DNA from: an uncultured Spartobacteria bacterium
Lineage (GTDB): Bacteria > Verrucomicrobiota > Verrucomicrobiia > Chthoniobacterales > Chthoniobacteraceae
DNA: 50,711 nt
Direction: 5' to 3'
NCBI GenBank assembly: GCA_903882875.1
Contig: CAIRYQ010000022.1
Coordinates: forward strand, 1 to 50,711
The notes beneath the pieces were generated by a model, which saw nothing but the letters and a program-made list of their open reading frames with translations, made no database searches and was not told where the DNA came from. The translations under genes and the position numbers were made by a program. Below, piece after piece: positions 2,920 through 10,865 of the stretch. Each line of letters starts with the position of its first letter. Within the stretch, counting starts at the first letter, position 1.

Positions 2920-3105
2920 ATGAATTACATCGTCGAGACGGAAATCGTCTGCCCGTTTTGCGGCGAGGCGTTTGCCACGGCGGTGGACACTTCGCAGGGC
3001 GACGTGAGCACCATCGAGGACTGCACCGTCTGCTGCCGCCCGATCGCGTTGCACTTTGAATGCGAGCCAGGCGAAGTGCTCTCAGTGGATTCGTCGAGAG
3101 CCTAA
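2920..3105 (+). CDS. CPXCG-motif Cys-rich small protein
   Basis: A 61-residue protein with CPFCGE near the start and CTVCCRP about 25 residues later, the pattern of the Cys_rich_CPXCG family. The two Cys pairs probably bind zinc. The biological role of the family is not known. It starts 19 bases after the second hydrolase, on the same strand, and may belong to that transcription unit. The end of the frame runs to 3105, before the serpin start. Confidence 0.8.
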   Translation: MNYIVETEIVCPFCGEAFATAVDTSQGDVSTIEDCTVCCRPIALHFECEPGEVLSVDSSRA

Positions 3106-3176
3106 CGCCCCGCTTGCGCTGCTCTGGAAATTCCGCGCAGATTGACGCAGCCATTCCGGGACAACATGCTGACGAA

Positions 3177-4430
3177 ATGAAAGCCGCCCTCCTCGCCGGA
3201 ACCTTCCTCGTCATGAATGCAGCCGCGGCGGACACCGACACCGCGGCTGGTGCTATCAACCACCTCGGACTCGATCTGCACCGGCGGCTCGCGAAGCCGG
3301 GAGAGAACCTCTGCCTTTCTCCCTACTCGATCCAGAGTGCGCTCGCGATGACCTTCGCCGGCGCGGACGGCGCGACACGCGACGAAATGGAAAAGGTTCT
3401 CCATTTTCCAAAAGGCGACGCCATCCACGCCTCATTCGCTGCGCTGAACCACGGGCTCGCGGACGTGGCCAAGAAGACCACGGAACTTGCAGCGCAGGCG
3501 AAAAAATACGGCGGCCCCGGCGAACCGATCGCGCTGAACATCGCGAACCGCCTCTTCGGACAGTCGGGCTACGAATTCCGTGAGCCATTCCTTTCGCTGC
3601 TGAAAGAACAATATGACGCGCCGATGGATCTGCTCGATTTCCGGGAATCCCCGGAGCCCTCGCGCAAGCACATCAACGACTGGGTGGAGGAGCAGACCCG
3701 CAAGCGCATTCGCGACCTCATTCCGAGCGGAATCATCAAGGAAGGCACCCGCCTGGTGCTCGTGAACGCCGTGTACCTCAAGGCACCGTGGGCGACGGAA
3801 TTCCAAAAGGAGGCGACGACATCCGAGCCGTTCCACGTCCGCGGCGAGGATGCAAAACCGGTGCCCACGATGAGGCGCGAAGCGAAATTCGGCTTTGCGC
3901 AGCACAAGGGCTACCGCGCCGTGAGCATTCCATACATCGGGCACGACGTGCATTTTCTAGTCATCGTGCCGGATGATGTGAACGGTCTCGCCGACGTGGA
4001 GAAAGGGCTCACCGCCGAAACGCTCGCGGAGCTTGCCAAGATGGAGCACCGGCTCGTGAACCTGCACCTGCCGAAATTTCACATCGAGCCGCCCTCTGTG
4101 GAACTCGGCGATGCGCTCATGGCCCTCGGCATGAAGACCGCATTCGACGAGCCGCGTCGCAGTGCAAACTTCGATCGCATGGCCCCGCGCAAGCCGGACG
4201 ACTACCTCTACATCTCGAAGGTCATCCACAAGACCTTCCTCGATATCGATGAAAAAGGAACCGAGGCCGCAGCCGCCACCGCAGTGGTCATGTTTTCCGC
4301 AGGCTCCGCCATGCAGCGCGCCGAGCCTGTCGAGCTAAAGGTGGATCGCCCGTTCCTCTTCGCGATCCAGCATGTGCCGAGCGGCGCTTGCCTCTTCCTC
4401 GGCCGGGTGAATGACCCTGGTGCGAAGTAG
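3177..4430 (+). CDS. Secreted serpin (serine protease inhibitor)
   Basis: A 417-residue protein. The start at 3177 gives a signal peptide (MKAALLAGTFLVMNAAAAD); the frame is open further upstream but that stretch overlaps the previous gene and lacks coding character. Serpin hallmarks are present: NLCLSPYSIQSALAMTFAGA near residue 40, NAVYLKAPW in the middle, and the C-terminal DRPFLFAIQH. The reactive-centre hinge EKGTEAAAATAVV (about residues 359-371) keeps the small residues needed for loop insertion, so it should be an inhibitory serpin. By hinge counting, P1 falls near Ala375 in FSAGSA, which would suit an elastase- or subtilisin-like target; the exact bond is inference. It may protect the cell surface from external or self-made proteases. 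Confidence 0.93.
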   Translation: MKAALLAGTFLVMNAAAADTDTAAGAINHLGLDLHRRLAKPGENLCLSPYSIQSALAMTFAGADGATRDEMEKVLHFPKGDAIHASFAALNHGLADVAKKTTELAAQAKKYGGPGEPIALNIANRLFGQSGYEFREPFLSLLKEQYDAPMDLLDFRESPEPSRKHINDWVEEQTRKRIRDLIPSGIIKEGTRLVLVNAVYLKAPWATEFQKEATTSEPFHVRGEDAKPVPTMRREAKFGFAQHKGYRAVSIPYIGHDVHFLVIVPDDVNGLADVEKGLTAETLAELAKMEHRLVNLHLPKFHIEPPSVELGDALMALGMKTAFDEPRRSANFDRMAPRKPDDYLYISKVIHKTFLDIDEKGTEAAAATAVVMFSAGSAMQRAEPVELKVDRPFLFAIQHVPSGACLFLGRVNDPGAK

Positions 4431-4478: not shown

Positions 4479-5435
4479 TCAAAACTTCGCCTTCGGCTTC
4501 GCGCCGCGGCCGGGCTTGCCGTAGGTCACGGGCTTTTTCCTCGGCTCGATCTTTGAGAGGCCGGTGCCGGCCTTCAGTTCGCCGATTTGATCGCGCAGGA
4601 GCGCGGCCTTTTCGTATTCGAGGTTTGCGGAGGCGTGAAGCATCTCCTCCTCCAGTTCGCGGAGCGTCTCGCTGAGGGAGAAGTTGCCGCCGGCCTCGTT
4701 CACAACGGAGGATTCGATTTCACGGCCACGCAAAATCGTGTGCAGGCTCTCCTGCACGGCACGCTTCACACTCGTCGGCGTGATGCCGTGTTTCTCGTTG
4801 TATTCGATCTGCCGCGCGCGGCGGTACTCGGTGATGTCTAGCAGCGCCTGCATGGATTTTGTCACCGTGTCGGCGAAAAGATAGACTTGCCCGTTCACGT
4901 GGCGTGCCGCGCGGCCGGCTGTCTGGATGAGCGAAGTCTGCGAGCGGAGGTAGCCCTCCTTGTCGGCATCGAGGATGACGACGAGCGAGACTTCCGGGAG
5001 ATCGAGCCCTTCGCGGAGGAGATTGATGCCGACGAGAATGTCGAACTCCGCCGCACGCAACGCGCGCAAAATTTCCACGCGTTCGATCGTATCAATGTCG
5101 CTGTGGAGATACCGCACGCGCAGGCCCACGTCCTTGAGGTAATCGCTGAGATCCTCCGCGGTGCGCTTCGTGAGCGTGGTGATGAGCACGCGCTCGCCGA
5201 GTTCCGTGCGCTGGCGGCAAAGCTCCATCGTCTCATCAATCTGCGCCTTGAGCGGACGGATGGTAATCCTGGGATCGAGCAGTCCGGTGGGCCGGATGAT
5301 TTGCTCGACGATCAGCGGCGCGCCCGGCGTGTGGACATCGAAGTCCTCGACGGGCACTTCACTCCCGCTAGGTTTGATCGAAGTGGAATTCATCGCCCCA
5401 CCGATACCGCGCTGCGCGGCATTGAAAAGGAGCAT
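4479..5435 (-). CDS. uvrB: UvrB, C-terminal half only (split gene)
   Basis: A 318-residue product matching the second half of the UvrB excision-nuclease helicase. It joins the family at IVEQIIRPTGLLDP, then has TTLTKRTAEDL, VRYLHSDIDT, LVGINLLREGLDLPEVSLV, the motif VI segment QTAGRAARHVNG, HGITP, and the C-terminal UVR helical hairpin (about residues 260-295) that contacts UvrC. The ATP-binding half is missing here and is found at 9477-10745 on the same strand. An in-frame TGA sits directly before the first ATG. The first ~22 residues are not UvrB-like. An internal ATG at 5393 is preceded by GGTGGGG and could be the real start. Two unrelated genes separate the halves. Function as a separate polypeptide is unproven. 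Confidence 0.9.
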   Translation of the reverse strand: MLLFNAAQRGIGGAMNSTSIKPSGSEVPVEDFDVHTPGAPLIVEQIIRPTGLLDPRITIRPLKAQIDETMELCRQRTELGERVLITTLTKRTAEDLSDYLKDVGLRVRYLHSDIDTIERVEILRALRAAEFDILVGINLLREGLDLPEVSLVVILDADKEGYLRSQTSLIQTAGRAARHVNGQVYLFADTVTKSMQALLDITEYRRARQIEYNEKHGITPTSVKRAVQESLHTILRGREIESSVVNEAGGNFSLSETLRELEEEMLHASANLEYEKAALLRDQIGELKAGTGLSKIEPRKKPVTYGKPGRGAKPKAKF

Positions 5436-5465
5436 TCACATCGCAACCGTCGCCACATCACGGTT

Positions 5466-7991
5466 TCAAGGGGCGAGGCTCGCACTGCCGTCCTTGGAAA
5501 TGAGGACCGGCAGTTCGCGGGCGCGGACGATACGTTCGTCGCGACCGAGCGTGACTTCCAGCAGCGCCCCGCGCGACCACTCCGCATCTGGGCCCGGCCC
5601 GTCGAAAACAAGATTGCCGAGCGACCATGCGACGAGCGCGCCATTTTGGAAAACGAGCGGCTGCCGCGTGTGCGGACCGCTGCCGATGATCAACCGCGCA
5701 CCCGCGCCTGCGAGCTGTCCAGCGAGCGTTTGTTGCGCATCATCTGGTGTGGCGGTGTGCTCGGTGCCCCAATGCGCCAGGACGATCACGACCGCGGTGC
5801 GCGCGGATTCACGGATGGCGGCAAGCAATGGGGCATCCGCGTGCTCCTCACATGCGAACACCGCGAGCCGGTGCACACCCTTTTCCAAAATCACCGCGCG
5901 CGGCGATCCGTCGGCGCTGCGGATTTTCGCAGCAGCGAGGCGGCGCGCGGCGTCGGCGAACGCAGCGTCGCCGAAGTCCCGCGCGTGGTTGTTCGCGAGC
6001 GACACAAGACCCACTCCCGCGGCTGCGAGCAATTCCGGCGCGCGCTCGTGGGCACGAAAGTGAAACGTCCTGCGAGGTGCCGGCTCACCCAGCGGAGATG
6101 CGACGCATTCGAGATTCACAAGTGCGAAATCGGCTGTGTGGAATGTTGGCGCGATGCCTGCGAGCGGATCCACACCGCGATCGATCGCCGTCGCGACGCC
6201 GCGACCAAGCATCACATCGCCGCCGAAGACGAGGCGCAGCGTGTCCGGTTCGGCGCGCAGGCGGAGCAGGCGGAATCGCTCGTGCTTTTTCAGCAGCACG
6301 CCGAGCGGGACGATCTCCGGCACGCCTTCGAGGTGATGCACGACGAGATCGCCAGGATCGAGCTGGCCCAGCGGAGGACGATCTTCCCACACGTCTGCGA
6401 CGTGGCTTCCGAAATGCACGAATGCACCGGCCTCGACATCGCGCGCTGCGATCGCAGGCAGCGCATCGCCGCGCTTCCACGACGCGATTTCTTCGCAGTG
6501 CGAGGCAAACTGCTTCGGGTCGCCCCACGGCAGACGCCAGCCTTCGCGCCGAAGCGCGGCGGTGAGAAAATTCGCGCAATCCGCGGCAGCCAGCGCATCC
6601 GGCCCTCCGGGGACGAGGCCGCAGCCGAATGCGTACGGTCGCGCGAACTGCTCGCTCAGCGCGCCACGAAAGCCCGTGCCGGAACGAAAGGTCAGCGCGA
6701 TGTCATTCGAGCGCCATTGCTCGCCGTCGCGCTCCGCAGTCGCAAAAACAAACGCCGTTCCCGCATGGGTCGTCGGCTCGAGGATCGCGTGAAGCGCGCG
6801 CGTCGGGAGTTCCGGCCCTTCGCCCAGCGCACGCGGCACGCGGCGAAGAAAGCGCGGCGCGTCGTCGGCAAAGCCGAGCGCGAGCCCGGCGACATTCGTG
6901 CTCGCGTGCTCCGGGACGAGCGCGAACCAACGCACGCGCGCACCGTCCGCGTGCTCGACACGGAGCATCTGTGCGGCATCCGCGCGGAGGCGGTGCCAGC
7001 CGTCCGGCTCCGCGATTTCATCCGCGACAATCGCGCGCGGAATGAACGGCTCGGCGGCCCATTCATCGAGCAATGCAGCAAGCCTCGGATCGTCGCCGAA
7101 CCGGTTCCGCCGCGCGAGCAGCAGCGTGCGCAGCGCGGGGCCGGCACGAGGGAGATCGAGGCGCGGCACTGGCTTTCCGGCTTTCTGCAACTCCTGCGCG
7201 CGACGCGAACGATCCGGCCCGGCGTCGGCGAATGGAGCAAACGTCACGCGGGCATTGGCGACGCTCGTCGCCGCATCGAGCGCGAGCACCGTGAGCCGCT
7301 CCGCCTGGGCTTCGCCGCGAAGCCACGGCGACGATAGGCTGAAGGTGAGCGCGCGGAGCCCCGGCACGCGCAGCAGCCCGGTGAACACTTTCGTGAATTC
7401 CGCATCGAGCCGCCCGTCGGGCACGTCCGCGAAATAATCGAGATCAAGCGAAGCGACCACTCGAGCTTCGCGCGGCCACTTCGCCGACTCGCGCTCGAAG
7501 CCGGCCCAGTCCGTCGCGCGGTAACGCGTGCCGAGTTCGCCGCATTCGCGAGGGAACGCCTCGCTGAGCCCGTCGAGATTTTCGCGAGCGAGCGTCTGCC
7601 GCCGCCCGATTTCGAGCCGGTTCAACTTTGGTGCCGCGACCCACACCACTTCCGCAAACGGCGCGGGCATGAGCGGCTCGATCCAGTCGAAGCACTGCAC
7701 CGCGCCGTCCTTGCGCCAGCGCGCCAACAACCTCGCGCGGGCATCTTCATCCGGCACGCCGCGCAGCGCTGTGCGGATGCGATCCGAGTCCGCGAGCGCA
7801 CTCGCGTCGCTGTGCGCATCCACGAGCACGAGCTTGTGCGGTTCGTCGAGCGGGAGCGTCCCGGCGAGGTGGTGAAAAGTGCCGGCGTGGCTTTCCTCGA
7901 AATGGATGTCGAGCAGCGCCGGTTCGTCGGCGCGCACAATAGCGAGCATCACGAGCCACGCAGCCGCGAGCCATGTGCGGCACCACACCAT
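5466..7991 (-). CDS. Secreted three-module protein: arginase/UPF0489-like, Cys-peptidase-like, CapA-like
   Basis: An 841-residue protein with a signal peptide (residues 1-21). Module 1, about residues 25-200, has VDAHSD (D58, H60, D62) and SLDLDYF (D183, D185), the two metal-binding motifs of the arginase/UPF0489 fold. A middle segment contains DCANFL (C472) and, about 45 residues on, HFGSH followed by DPGDLVVHHL, which resembles the Cys/His pair and GDLV turn of NlpC/P60 or DUF1175-like peptidases. From about residue 590 it is a CapA-type domain (FGGDVMLGRGV, LANNHARDFG, HWGTEH, GSGPHTRQP, SLGNLVFD) as in poly-gamma-glutamate synthesis proteins. It lies in the uvrB interruption, 4 bases after the gene at 7996. 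CapA is confident; the other two modules are motif-based inference. Confidence 0.78.
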   Translation of the reverse strand: MVWCRTWLAAAWLVMLAIVRADEPALLDIHFEESHAGTFHHLAGTLPLDEPHKLVLVDAHSDASALADSDRIRTALRGVPDEDARARLLARWRKDGAVQCFDWIEPLMPAPFAEVVWVAAPKLNRLEIGRRQTLARENLDGLSEAFPRECGELGTRYRATDWAGFERESAKWPREARVVASLDLDYFADVPDGRLDAEFTKVFTGLLRVPGLRALTFSLSSPWLRGEAQAERLTVLALDAATSVANARVTFAPFADAGPDRSRRAQELQKAGKPVPRLDLPRAGPALRTLLLARRNRFGDDPRLAALLDEWAAEPFIPRAIVADEIAEPDGWHRLRADAAQMLRVEHADGARVRWFALVPEHASTNVAGLALGFADDAPRFLRRVPRALGEGPELPTRALHAILEPTTHAGTAFVFATAERDGEQWRSNDIALTFRSGTGFRGALSEQFARPYAFGCGLVPGGPDALAAADCANFLTAALRREGWRLPWGDPKQFASHCEEIASWKRGDALPAIAARDVEAGAFVHFGSHVADVWEDRPPLGQLDPGDLVVHHLEGVPEIVPLGVLLKKHERFRLLRLRAEPDTLRLVFGGDVMLGRGVATAIDRGVDPLAGIAPTFHTADFALVNLECVASPLGEPAPRRTFHFRAHERAPELLAAAGVGLVSLANNHARDFGDAAFADAARRLAAAKIRSADGSPRAVILEKGVHRLAVFACEEHADAPLLAAIRESARTAVVIVLAHWGTEHTATPDDAQQTLAGQLAGAGARLIIGSGPHTRQPLVFQNGALVAWSLGNLVFDGPGPDAEWSRGALLEVTLGRDERIVRARELPVLISKDGSASLAP

Positions 7992-7995
7992 TCTT

Positions 7996-9381
7996 TTACC
8001 GAGCCGGTTGAATCTTCGGCGCTTTTTCGAGCGGCGCGATCAGCTCGATGTCGCTTACCGCGGTGTCCTCGTATTTCGAGCCGGGATAGACTTTCTGAAT
8101 CGTGAGCTTGATCGTCTTCACCTCGCCGATGCCCGCGGGCAGCGGAATGCGATACAAGTGGTGCGTGAGTCGCTCGTCCGGGATGGCCGCGGTGAATGGC
8201 GCGGCCCCATTCACGCTCACGCCGAACTCGGCGACGCGACCATTTTTATAGTAAAGCGAATCGTCCTCGCCCTTGCAGTAGCCGGTGCGAATGCCGAGGA
8301 AGGCGACCTTGCGCGGCACCCGCAGCGCGAGCGTGATGCTCTCGCCGACGCCGTCGCCTTTTGCGCCCTCGACCCATGCGGTGCCGGGATTGCCGTCGGC
8401 GACATTCGCCGCGGCGTAGGTCGTCTCCTCCTCTTCGCCCGCGATTTTCGTGGGCGGCAATTCAGAGGTCGCCGTCGCCGTGTAGTCGTGATGGGAAAGC
8501 TCCCACGCCTTCCCGATGCGGGTGAAATTCGCGCGGCTGCCTTCACCGGCATCATCGCCCGCCGGCTTCGATCCCGGCAGCAATCTTCCGAATTCCGCAC
8601 ACGCAGGATGCACGGCGATATTCAGATCGTCGCCGAGGCCGGGCTTAAAATTCTTAAACTCCCACGTCCACGAGTCGCCGGTCCGAGTGAAGCGTTTCGG
8701 GAGATTGAATTTCACCTGATCCGCCGGGACACTCGCGGCATTGACGACCACCTTGCCGGTCTTAATCGGCCCTTTCCAAACGGCCGCCGTCGAAAAAAGA
8801 TAAGTCAGCGTCTCGGCTGTGGTTTCCGCATCGTCGGAAATCGATCCGGTGATCCCAAAATAATTCGTGTCGTAGCTGACCCGGAGCTTGCGCGTCTGCC
8901 CGCTGGCGAAGTCGAGCTTGAACACATACCAGAACGGCACCTGGCGATATGGCCCGTCCGGCCCGCGAAGTTTCGGCGTGGGAAAATCCTTCTGTCCCAC
9001 CTTGTCGCGGAAGGTACGCCATTCCAGTTTCTGCCCGTCGAGCTCGGGAGCGAAATTCCGCAGCGGCGGCGTGGTTTCGCCTTCCTCCCGTTTTGCGTTG
9101 TTTTCATCAATGATGAGCGCCGCCGCGGCCTTGCACGGAAAGCCGATCTCGGCAGTCACCGCCTTGCCCGGATTGCGCAGCGTGTATTCGACCTCGACGT
9201 GCCCGTGCTCGATGTGGAGGTCAATGCGCAGATCTTCCGTGAGCATCTCGATCTGCCCCGCATTCTTCGGCTGGAACAGGCCGAGCGAGCCATTGCTCGC
9301 GGTGCCGTAGAGGTAGCCGCCTCCATTGGCGGACGCGATGCAGGGGACGAGCGCGGCGACGAGGAAGACTGCGATTTTCAT
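7996..9381 (-). CDS. Secreted protein with C-terminal discoidin/NADase-type glycan-binding-like domain
   Basis: A 461-residue protein with signal peptide MKIAVFLVAALVPCIASA. Residues ~20-260 form a beta-rich region with VEVEYTLRNPGKAVTAEIGF and FWYVFKLDF, similar in style to DUF4424-like secreted domains. From about residue 300 a discoidin-like module follows (TATSELPP, YAAANVADGNPGTAWVEG, GVGESITLAL, IRTGYCKG, IKLTIQKVYPG), the pattern of the NADase-type glycan-binding domain. It probably binds a polysaccharide or surface glycan; no catalytic site is seen. It is the first gene of the two-gene insert in uvrB, with only 4 bases to the CapA-fusion gene, so the two are surely cotranscribed and likely act together at the envelope. 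Confidence 0.72.
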   Translation of the reverse strand: MKIAVFLVAALVPCIASANGGGYLYGTASNGSLGLFQPKNAGQIEMLTEDLRIDLHIEHGHVEVEYTLRNPGKAVTAEIGFPCKAAAALIIDENNAKREEGETTPPLRNFAPELDGQKLEWRTFRDKVGQKDFPTPKLRGPDGPYRQVPFWYVFKLDFASGQTRKLRVSYDTNYFGITGSISDDAETTAETLTYLFSTAAVWKGPIKTGKVVVNAASVPADQVKFNLPKRFTRTGDSWTWEFKNFKPGLGDDLNIAVHPACAEFGRLLPGSKPAGDDAGEGSRANFTRIGKAWELSHHDYTATATSELPPTKIAGEEEETTYAAANVADGNPGTAWVEGAKGDGVGESITLALRVPRKVAFLGIRTGYCKGEDDSLYYKNGRVAEFGVSVNGAAPFTAAIPDERLTHHLYRIPLPAGIGEVKTIKLTIQKVYPGSKYEDTAVSDIELIAPLEKAPKIQPAR

Positions 9382-9476
9382 GCTCGATATTGAACGCCGG
9401 ATATCAAAGGAGGCGAGAACAGATTCGACTACGCGCAGCCGGAAAGCCGGTCAGCACGGTTTGGAAAAAACCGCAG

Positions 9477-10745
9477 CTACTTCCTCACCCCGCCCTGTGT
9501 GGCACTCACGGGGATGTAGCCCTTGTTGCCGACGACGCTGTTGCGAATCTCGAACTCCCCCGGCGTCGCGCTCACGTAGATCGTCTGCCCGGCCATCTCC
9601 ATGAACTCGGGGAATTTCAGCGGCCGGTTGTCCATCGCGCTCGGGAGGCGGAAGCCGTATTCGACGAGCGTGTTTTTCCGCACGCGGTCGCCCTCGTACA
9701 TGCCGCCGATTTGCGGGATGGTCGCGTGCGATTCGTCAATCACGAGCAGGAAGTCGCGGGGAAAAAAGTCGAGCAGGGTGTAGGGCCGCGAGCCCGGCGC
9801 ACGTCCGCTGAGATGGCGCGAGTAATTCTCGATGCCGCTGCAAAAGCCCATCTCCTGCATCATCTCCAAATCGTATTCCGTGCGCTGCTTGATGCGCTGC
9901 GCTTCGAGCAAACGCCCGTGCTTTTCAAAAAAAATCACGCGCTCCTGCATCTCCTCGCGGATCGTCACCAGCGCGGCGCGCAGCCGGTCGCTGCTCGTCA
10001 CGAACTGCTTCGCGGGGAAAATCACGATCATCGTGAGCTGCTCGTTCACGTGCCCGGTGAGCGGGTCGAACCGCGAGATGCGGTCCACCTCGTCGCCGAA
10101 GAACTCGATGCGGATCGCCGTCTCGTCCTCGCTCGCGGGATGCACTTCGACCACGTCCCCGCGCACGCGGAAGCGGCCGCGCTCGAATGCCACGTCATTT
10201 CGCTCGTAAAGCATGTCCACGAGTTTGCTCAGCACCATCTCGCGCCCGATTTTCTGGGCGACCTTCAGCGTGAGCAGCATCGAGAGAAAATCCTCCGGCG
10301 AAGCGAGGCCGTAGATGCACGACACGCTCGCCACCACGAGCACGTCGCGCCGCGAGAGCAGCGACGAGGTCGTGGACAAACGCAGACGCTCGATCTCCTC
10401 GTTGATGGACGAATCCTTCTCGATGTAGGTGTCCGACCGCGGGATGTAAGCCTCCGGCTGGTAGTAGTCGAAATAGCTCACGAAATACTCCACCGCATTG
10501 TCCGGAAAGAACGCGCGGAACTCCGAGTAGAGCTGCGCGGCGAGCGTCTTGTTGTGCGAAATCACGAGCGTGGGCCGTTCGATTTCGCGCACCACATTCG
10601 CCGCGGTGAAGGTCTTGCCGCTGCCCGTCACGCCGAGGAGCGTCTGGTGCCGGTTCCCCGCGACGATGGACTTCGTCAGCTTCGCGATCGCCTGGGCTTG
10701 GTCGCCCTGCGGCGAGTATTTCGAGGAAAGCTGGAATGCGGGCAT
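9477..10745 (-). CDS. uvrB: UvrB, N-terminal half only (split gene)
   Basis: A 422-residue product starting [16 protein letters not shown]; upstream in-frame sequence comes from a palindromic repeat and is not coding. It has the Walker A motif GVTGSGKT (residues 38-45), the UvrB beta-hairpin region [26 protein letters not shown], the DESHATIPQ box and [22 protein letters not shown]. It then stops after about 26 more residues, just where the second RecA-like domain should begin. Intact UvrB is about 660-700 residues. The missing part is at 4479-5435. The break falls in the variable stretch between motif III and the conserved VxQxxRPTGLLDP, so each polypeptide would carry one RecA-like lobe. 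Damage recognition needs both lobes together. Confidence 0.92.
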
Positions 10746-10788
10746 TTGACCACTTTCGCCGGAACCGGAGCGAATGCAACGCGCGCAG

Positions 10789-10817
10789 TGTAGGACAGGC
10801 TGGCAGCCTGTCCTACA
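10789..10817. repeat. 29-bp perfect palindrome (REP-like)
   Basis: Left arm 10789-10802 and right arm 10804-10817 are perfect 14-bp complements around one central base; the core is GTAGGACAGGC facing GCCTGTCCTAC. It sits in the 120-bp gap between the divergent uvrB N-half and the S9 peptidase gene. From memory, this type of intergenic palindrome is common in Verrucomicrobiota and resembles REP elements moved by RAYT transposases; that needs checking. Confidence 0.85.
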
Positions 10818-10865
10818 TTCTTTTTCCTTATCGCTGCGTGTGCGGCGGGTAGAAAGAGGCACCCC

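Follow-up and report, generated by a model that had tools for sequence, protein, structure and literature searches.

A uvrB gene split in the linker between its two RecA-like lobes in an uncultured Spartobacteria bacterium and in a second species of its genus

The repair helicase UvrB is highly conserved among bacteria and is normally a single protein, whose two lobes move on ATP binding. In the 50,711-nucleotide stretch of DNA analysed here (the window; contig CAIRYQ010000022.1 of assembly GCA_903882875.1, from an uncultured Spartobacteria bacterium), its coding sequence is divided between two minus-strand genes, which follow one another in the order uvrB-N, NADase-type protein gene, PGA_cap gene, uvrB-C (Table 1). 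The source genome, hereafter G000, comprises 5.78 Mb in 129 contigs and is 96% complete. A preliminary description of this DNA had reported a uvrB gene split into two minus-strand halves, and matches to the UvrB model TIGR00631 confirmed it. Specifically, uvrB-N matched model positions 2-401 with 672 bits (671 in the genome search) and uvrB-C positions 405-658 with 334 bits (333 in the genome search), with ∼3 model positions lost between them. Pfam searches identified PF17757 (UvrA-interaction domain) in uvrB-N, and PF12344 (UvrB domain) and PF02151 (C-terminal UVR motif) in uvrB-C. The motifs said to be kept in both halves were indeed present, as 12 of 12 motif strings (Walker A, helicase motifs and UvrB-specific stretches) were found in G000, and likewise in G029, another species of the genus.

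The boundaries first assigned to the halves held only in part. The coordinates of uvrB-N stood, but its UvrB sequence does not end directly after SATPG; it extends 26 residues further and ends within a long linker. The ATG at 5435 had been taken as the start of uvrB-C. The ATG at 5393 (MNSTSIKPSG, 304 residues) is the more likely start, because the G029 counterpart begins at the same residue (MTASSIKPSG). At most 14 extra residues are present at the start of uvrB-C.

Table 1. Features of the split uvrB locus in the G000 window, and the two uvrB genes of G029
Feature	Location	Strand	Description
uvrB-N	9477-10745	minus	422 residues; first RecA-like lobe with Walker A, UvrA-interaction domain, SATPG motif; stop codon in linker
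Insert gene 1	7996-9381	minus	signal-peptide-like start (by eye); NADase-type glycan-binding domain (NADase_transloc); weak DUF4424
Insert gene 2	5466-7991	minus	signal-peptide-like start (by eye); PGA_cap (CapA-like) domain
uvrB-C leader	5394-5441	minus	48 bases before the C-gene ATG; resembles the G029 C-gene leader
uvrB-C	4479-5393	minus	304 residues; second RecA-like lobe, UvrB domain, C-terminal UVR motif; alternative ATG at 5435
Serpin gene	3060-4430		bacterial serpin gene; faces uvrB-C
Palindrome	10787-10819		strong (15 pairs); between uvrB-N and a divergent S9 peptidase gene
G029 N gene	C29:11626-12888		ends GYIPVSITQGGTA followed by a stop
G029 C gene	C4:10537-11430		starts MTASSIKPSGGDVPVEEFDVHTPGAP

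The same split recurs in a related genome. We surveyed 40 genomes of the family, 10 of them from the genus, and obtained strong matches to both uvrB halves in 36; G012 and G019 lacked a match to the N half, and G022 and G034 gave weak half matches only. Of the 36, 34 had listed open frames that continue across the cut site, one of them (G037) carrying a stop inside its N half. The exceptions were G000 and G029, two of the 10 genomes of the genus, and the UvrB model positions at the cut are identical in both (401/405). In G029 the N half is on contig C29 (42665 bases) and the C half on contig C4 (80662 bases), each more than 10 kb from the nearest contig end, so the two must be at least about 22 kb apart. 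Sulfatase and ThuA-domain genes neighbour the G029 N gene, and another ThuA-domain gene precedes the C gene. The preliminary description had called for a search for the same split in related genomes, which G029 answers positively, and for a search of the genome for another uvrB, having suggested a recent disruption with a second copy elsewhere. No second uvrB was found in G000 using each half and the UvrB model, nor was another found in G029 using the UvrB model.

A wider survey covered 213 genomes of the order, for which the best matches were compared by eye. Among these best matches, breaks between the halves and away from contig ends were found in G000, G029, G160, G166 and G156, and a break or stop within the N half was found in G105 and G037; the other short frames, where opened, sat near contig ends. 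In G160 (locus L078), G166 (L079) and G156 (L082), which belong to another family of the order, the uvrB frame is broken in the same linker, with short repeats at the break in G160 and a palindrome-like insertion in G156. These frameshifts may be real or may be assembly errors. At 76 of 80 named uvrB loci the contig carries both half matches in the same frame, separated by no more than 310 bases, a count that considers the half matches and not internal stops; the other four have no N-half match, and their contigs begin no more than 181 bases ahead of the C-half match. We also observed a second strong N-half match near a contig end in G119 (C70:98-1330) and two C-half matches in G066, the better one at 3.5e-84.

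The preliminary description rightly placed the break in the loop between the lobes, and this loop is unusually long in the lineage. We measured linker length as the number of residues between SATP and RPTGL. With a looser pattern, which may overstate single values, 69 of the 80 named loci were measurable, and 28 had linkers of at least 54 residues, two had 29 and 43, and 39 had at most 16; a stricter pattern gave 54-148 residues for long linkers and 14-16 for short ones. All 28 long-linker loci are titled Verrucomicrobiota, and some Verrucomicrobiales-titled loci are short. Within the family, the looser pattern gave 57-89 residues at 28 of 29 loci, the unmeasured one being the split G029. By alignment, the extra stretch maps between residues 404 and 405 of Protein Data Bank (PDB) entry 2fdc. 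AlphaFold2 modelling of Chthoniobacter flavus UvrB (mean predicted local distance difference test score, pLDDT, of 78.3) gave a pLDDT below 50 at residues 415-439, and the G000 cut corresponds to approximately residues 415-442 by hand count on the alignment. The linker at the cut is expanded in this lineage and predicted to be disordered.

Substitution patterns indicate that both uvrB halves are under purifying selection. The ratio of nonsynonymous to synonymous substitution rates (dN/dS) between G000 and its relative G026 is 0.059 for the N half and 0.103 for the C half; the two intact genes of G026 and G027 give 0.061 and 0.089, respectively. Unique changes in G000 versus G026 numbered 5 versus 8 (N) and 1 versus 6 (C) with G028 as outgroup, 4 versus 9 and 4 versus 4 with G032, and 7 versus 7 and 1 versus 5 with G029; G000 had no excess with any of five outgroups. 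For G029 versus G028, with G017 as outgroup, the counts were 13 versus 26 (N) and 14 versus 11 (C). UvrA was found in both split genomes and UvrC in G000. In addition to a normal uvrA elsewhere, G000 carries a 1943-codon frame (C122:26060-31702, locus L191) with two UvrA matches in a row, a fused double UvrA, and frames of similar length are present in other species of the genus.

The cut shared with G029, the retained motifs and the purifying selection favour the natural split that the preliminary description had listed among its options. We consider it probable that uvrB underwent a natural fission and that its halves are separate chains that assemble into a working UvrB. The fission would have taken place in the linker that joins the two RecA-like lobes, a long, disordered and rapidly changing stretch, and each half, having its own start and stop, is probably made as a separate chain. 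The chains would then associate at the interface between the lobes and through DNA and UvrA contacts, yielding a UvrB competent for nucleotide excision repair. The two genes in between would be cargo, tolerated as the halves need not be adjacent. We infer the expression, association and activity of the two chains from sequence, and several observations weigh against this explanation. Neither G000 half alone reaches the curated TIGR00631 cut-off of 750.1 bits. If the G000 split is recent, the low dN/dS relative to G026 is little informative on the time since the split. Finally, UvrC was not found in the G029 assembly (93% complete), which speaks against a working pathway there unless UvrC lies in the missing part.

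The missing UvrC would also fit the alternative that survives best, though we regard it as unlikely: a rearrangement broke uvrB, and the halves are remnants heading for loss. In G022 (94% complete) and G034 (90%) searches with each half and with the UvrB model yielded no uvrB, yet UvrC was found, so that the family may be able to do without uvrB, unless assembly gaps account for these absences. However, the halves have open frames, complete motifs and low dN/dS, the rate is not raised in either split genome, and the cut position is identical in two species.

The flanks bear on a further alternative, in which an assembly chimera or mis-join hides an intact uvrB. G000 and G026 have the flank beyond uvrB-N in common (G026 contig C117 1-9206 aligns in broken pieces with window 24268-10818), and in G026 an intact uvrB follows the aligned stretch. 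A palindrome-like stretch after uvrB in G026 resembles, by eye, the palindrome in Table 1. The flank beyond uvrB-C is not common to G000 and either G026 or G027, and the genes downstream of uvrB all differ: adenylate-kinase-like in G026, epimerase-like in G027 (both by eye from frames) and a serpin in G000. With these downstream flanks all differing, a clean empty site for the insert could not be demonstrated on both of its sides. Short motifs common to the ends of the two genes were noticed by eye and set aside. The divergent left flank of G000 would suit a mis-join, as would the fragmentation of both split genomes (about 170 contigs in G029). Nevertheless, the same cut was seen independently in G029, the N half retains the gene order of G026, and no second uvrB piece in G000 completes either half; the chimera that the preliminary description had entertained is thus improbable.

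That description had also noted two genes between the halves without any transposase, and in our profile searches no transposase or recombinase family matched the proteins of the insert. Neither insert gene had a match in the 39 other family genomes (E up to 1e-10), leaving G000 alone among 40. Searches of plasmid records returned no match to insert gene 1 and one weak CapA-domain match to insert gene 2, and viral contigs gave no match to insert gene 1. Because no relative matched and the uvrB-C flank is not common to G026 or G027, the insert, by these comparisons, is either new to the family or was missed in the other family genomes. A removable element, another of the earlier suggestions, or trans-splicing by a split intein is the least probable explanation of all: the insert does occupy precisely the interval that separates the halves, and all four genes share one direction, but none of the four proteins matched a recombinase or intein family (Pfam matches of the two uvrB halves likewise included no intein family), no convincing repeat pair was present at the two insert ends among the 20 of 37 direct families and 25 of 60 inverted pairs listed, and the G029 halves are on different contigs.

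Whether the split arose once or twice in the genus is nearly even. In trees of uvrB bodies, uvrA, uvrC and long uvrA, G000 groups with G026 and G027. G029, which the uvrC tree does not include, falls apart from them and in the long uvrA tree is the neighbour of G031 and G032 (100/100); for the uvrB body, placing G000 and G029 together was rejected by the approximately unbiased test (p-AU 2e-6). The sequence around the cut behaves differently from these bodies. The first 29 conserved codons of G000 uvrB-C are identical to G026 at 54/87 positions and to G029 at 67/87, compared with 723/813 and 627/792 over the remainder (Fisher p for start versus remainder, 1.4e-9 with G026 and 0.68 with G029). 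Similarly, the G000 N tail is identical to G026 at 47/63 positions and to G029 at 49/63, compared with 1096/1194 and 944/1191 for the N body (p = 7e-5 and 0.75, respectively). The C-gene leaders of G000 and G029 align with a score of 41, whereas 3952 other leader pairs gave a mean of 16.3, a standard deviation of 3.8 and a maximum of 40; as this null includes spurious open reading frames, one of which was involved in the best null pair, the rank of 41 amounts to ∼1 in 4000 at most. We rejected a general promoter motif as the source of the likeness, as GTATCG occurs near the start in 1 of 178 leaders, namely that of the G029 C gene (the G000 C gene, with its first ATG at 5435, falls outside this set).

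Loop and leader, being more like those of G029 than those of the closest relatives, hint that a single split allele was spread by recombination, although the trees do not settle the matter. Three results count against a shared split allele: G000 and G029 group only weakly in the loop tree (78/68), grouping the loop with G026 and G027 was not rejected (p-AU 0.125), and loop sites diverge from G026/G027 comparably when G032 is substituted for G029. Tentatively, a split two-chain allele may have passed between species of the genus by recombination in the conserved sequence flanking the hypervariable linker, replacing intact alleles; fission and C-gene leader would form the inherited unit, and the halves would then drift apart, being 4 kb from each other in G000 and on separate contigs in G029. 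We do not favour an ancestral split with later re-fusion, which needs several re-fusions because eight intact species of the genus sit on several branches around G000 and G029.

Compared with bacterial UvrB (TIGR00631; PDB 2fdc, 1d9z and 1t5l), the G000 halves match end to end with motifs kept, but G000 has two genes rather than one and a long linker at the cut. A search for the phrase "split UvrB" within one literature library found no paper, and the excerpts available from PMC6390638 and PMC2837039 describe no split UvrB. A split dnaE with a possible intein appears in the excerpt on Desulfonema ishimotonii (PMC6390638), likewise a DNA enzyme encoded in two pieces. Those pieces, as given there, are adjacent, in different frames and suspected of an intein, whereas G000 uvrB has no intein family match. 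A natural two-chain UvrB, if true, would mean that UvrB can do without a covalent connection between its lobes and would offer a ready split point for testing this, and the steps of fission may be traceable within one bacterial order: a longer linker, linker insertions and frameshifts, the split, and separation of the halves. Nanoarchaeum equitans has a split reverse gyrase, among other split genes. Like the UvrB proposed here, split reverse gyrase is a helicase-type DNA enzyme made from two genes, and it differs in being archaeal, in belonging to a reduced genome and in being another enzyme.
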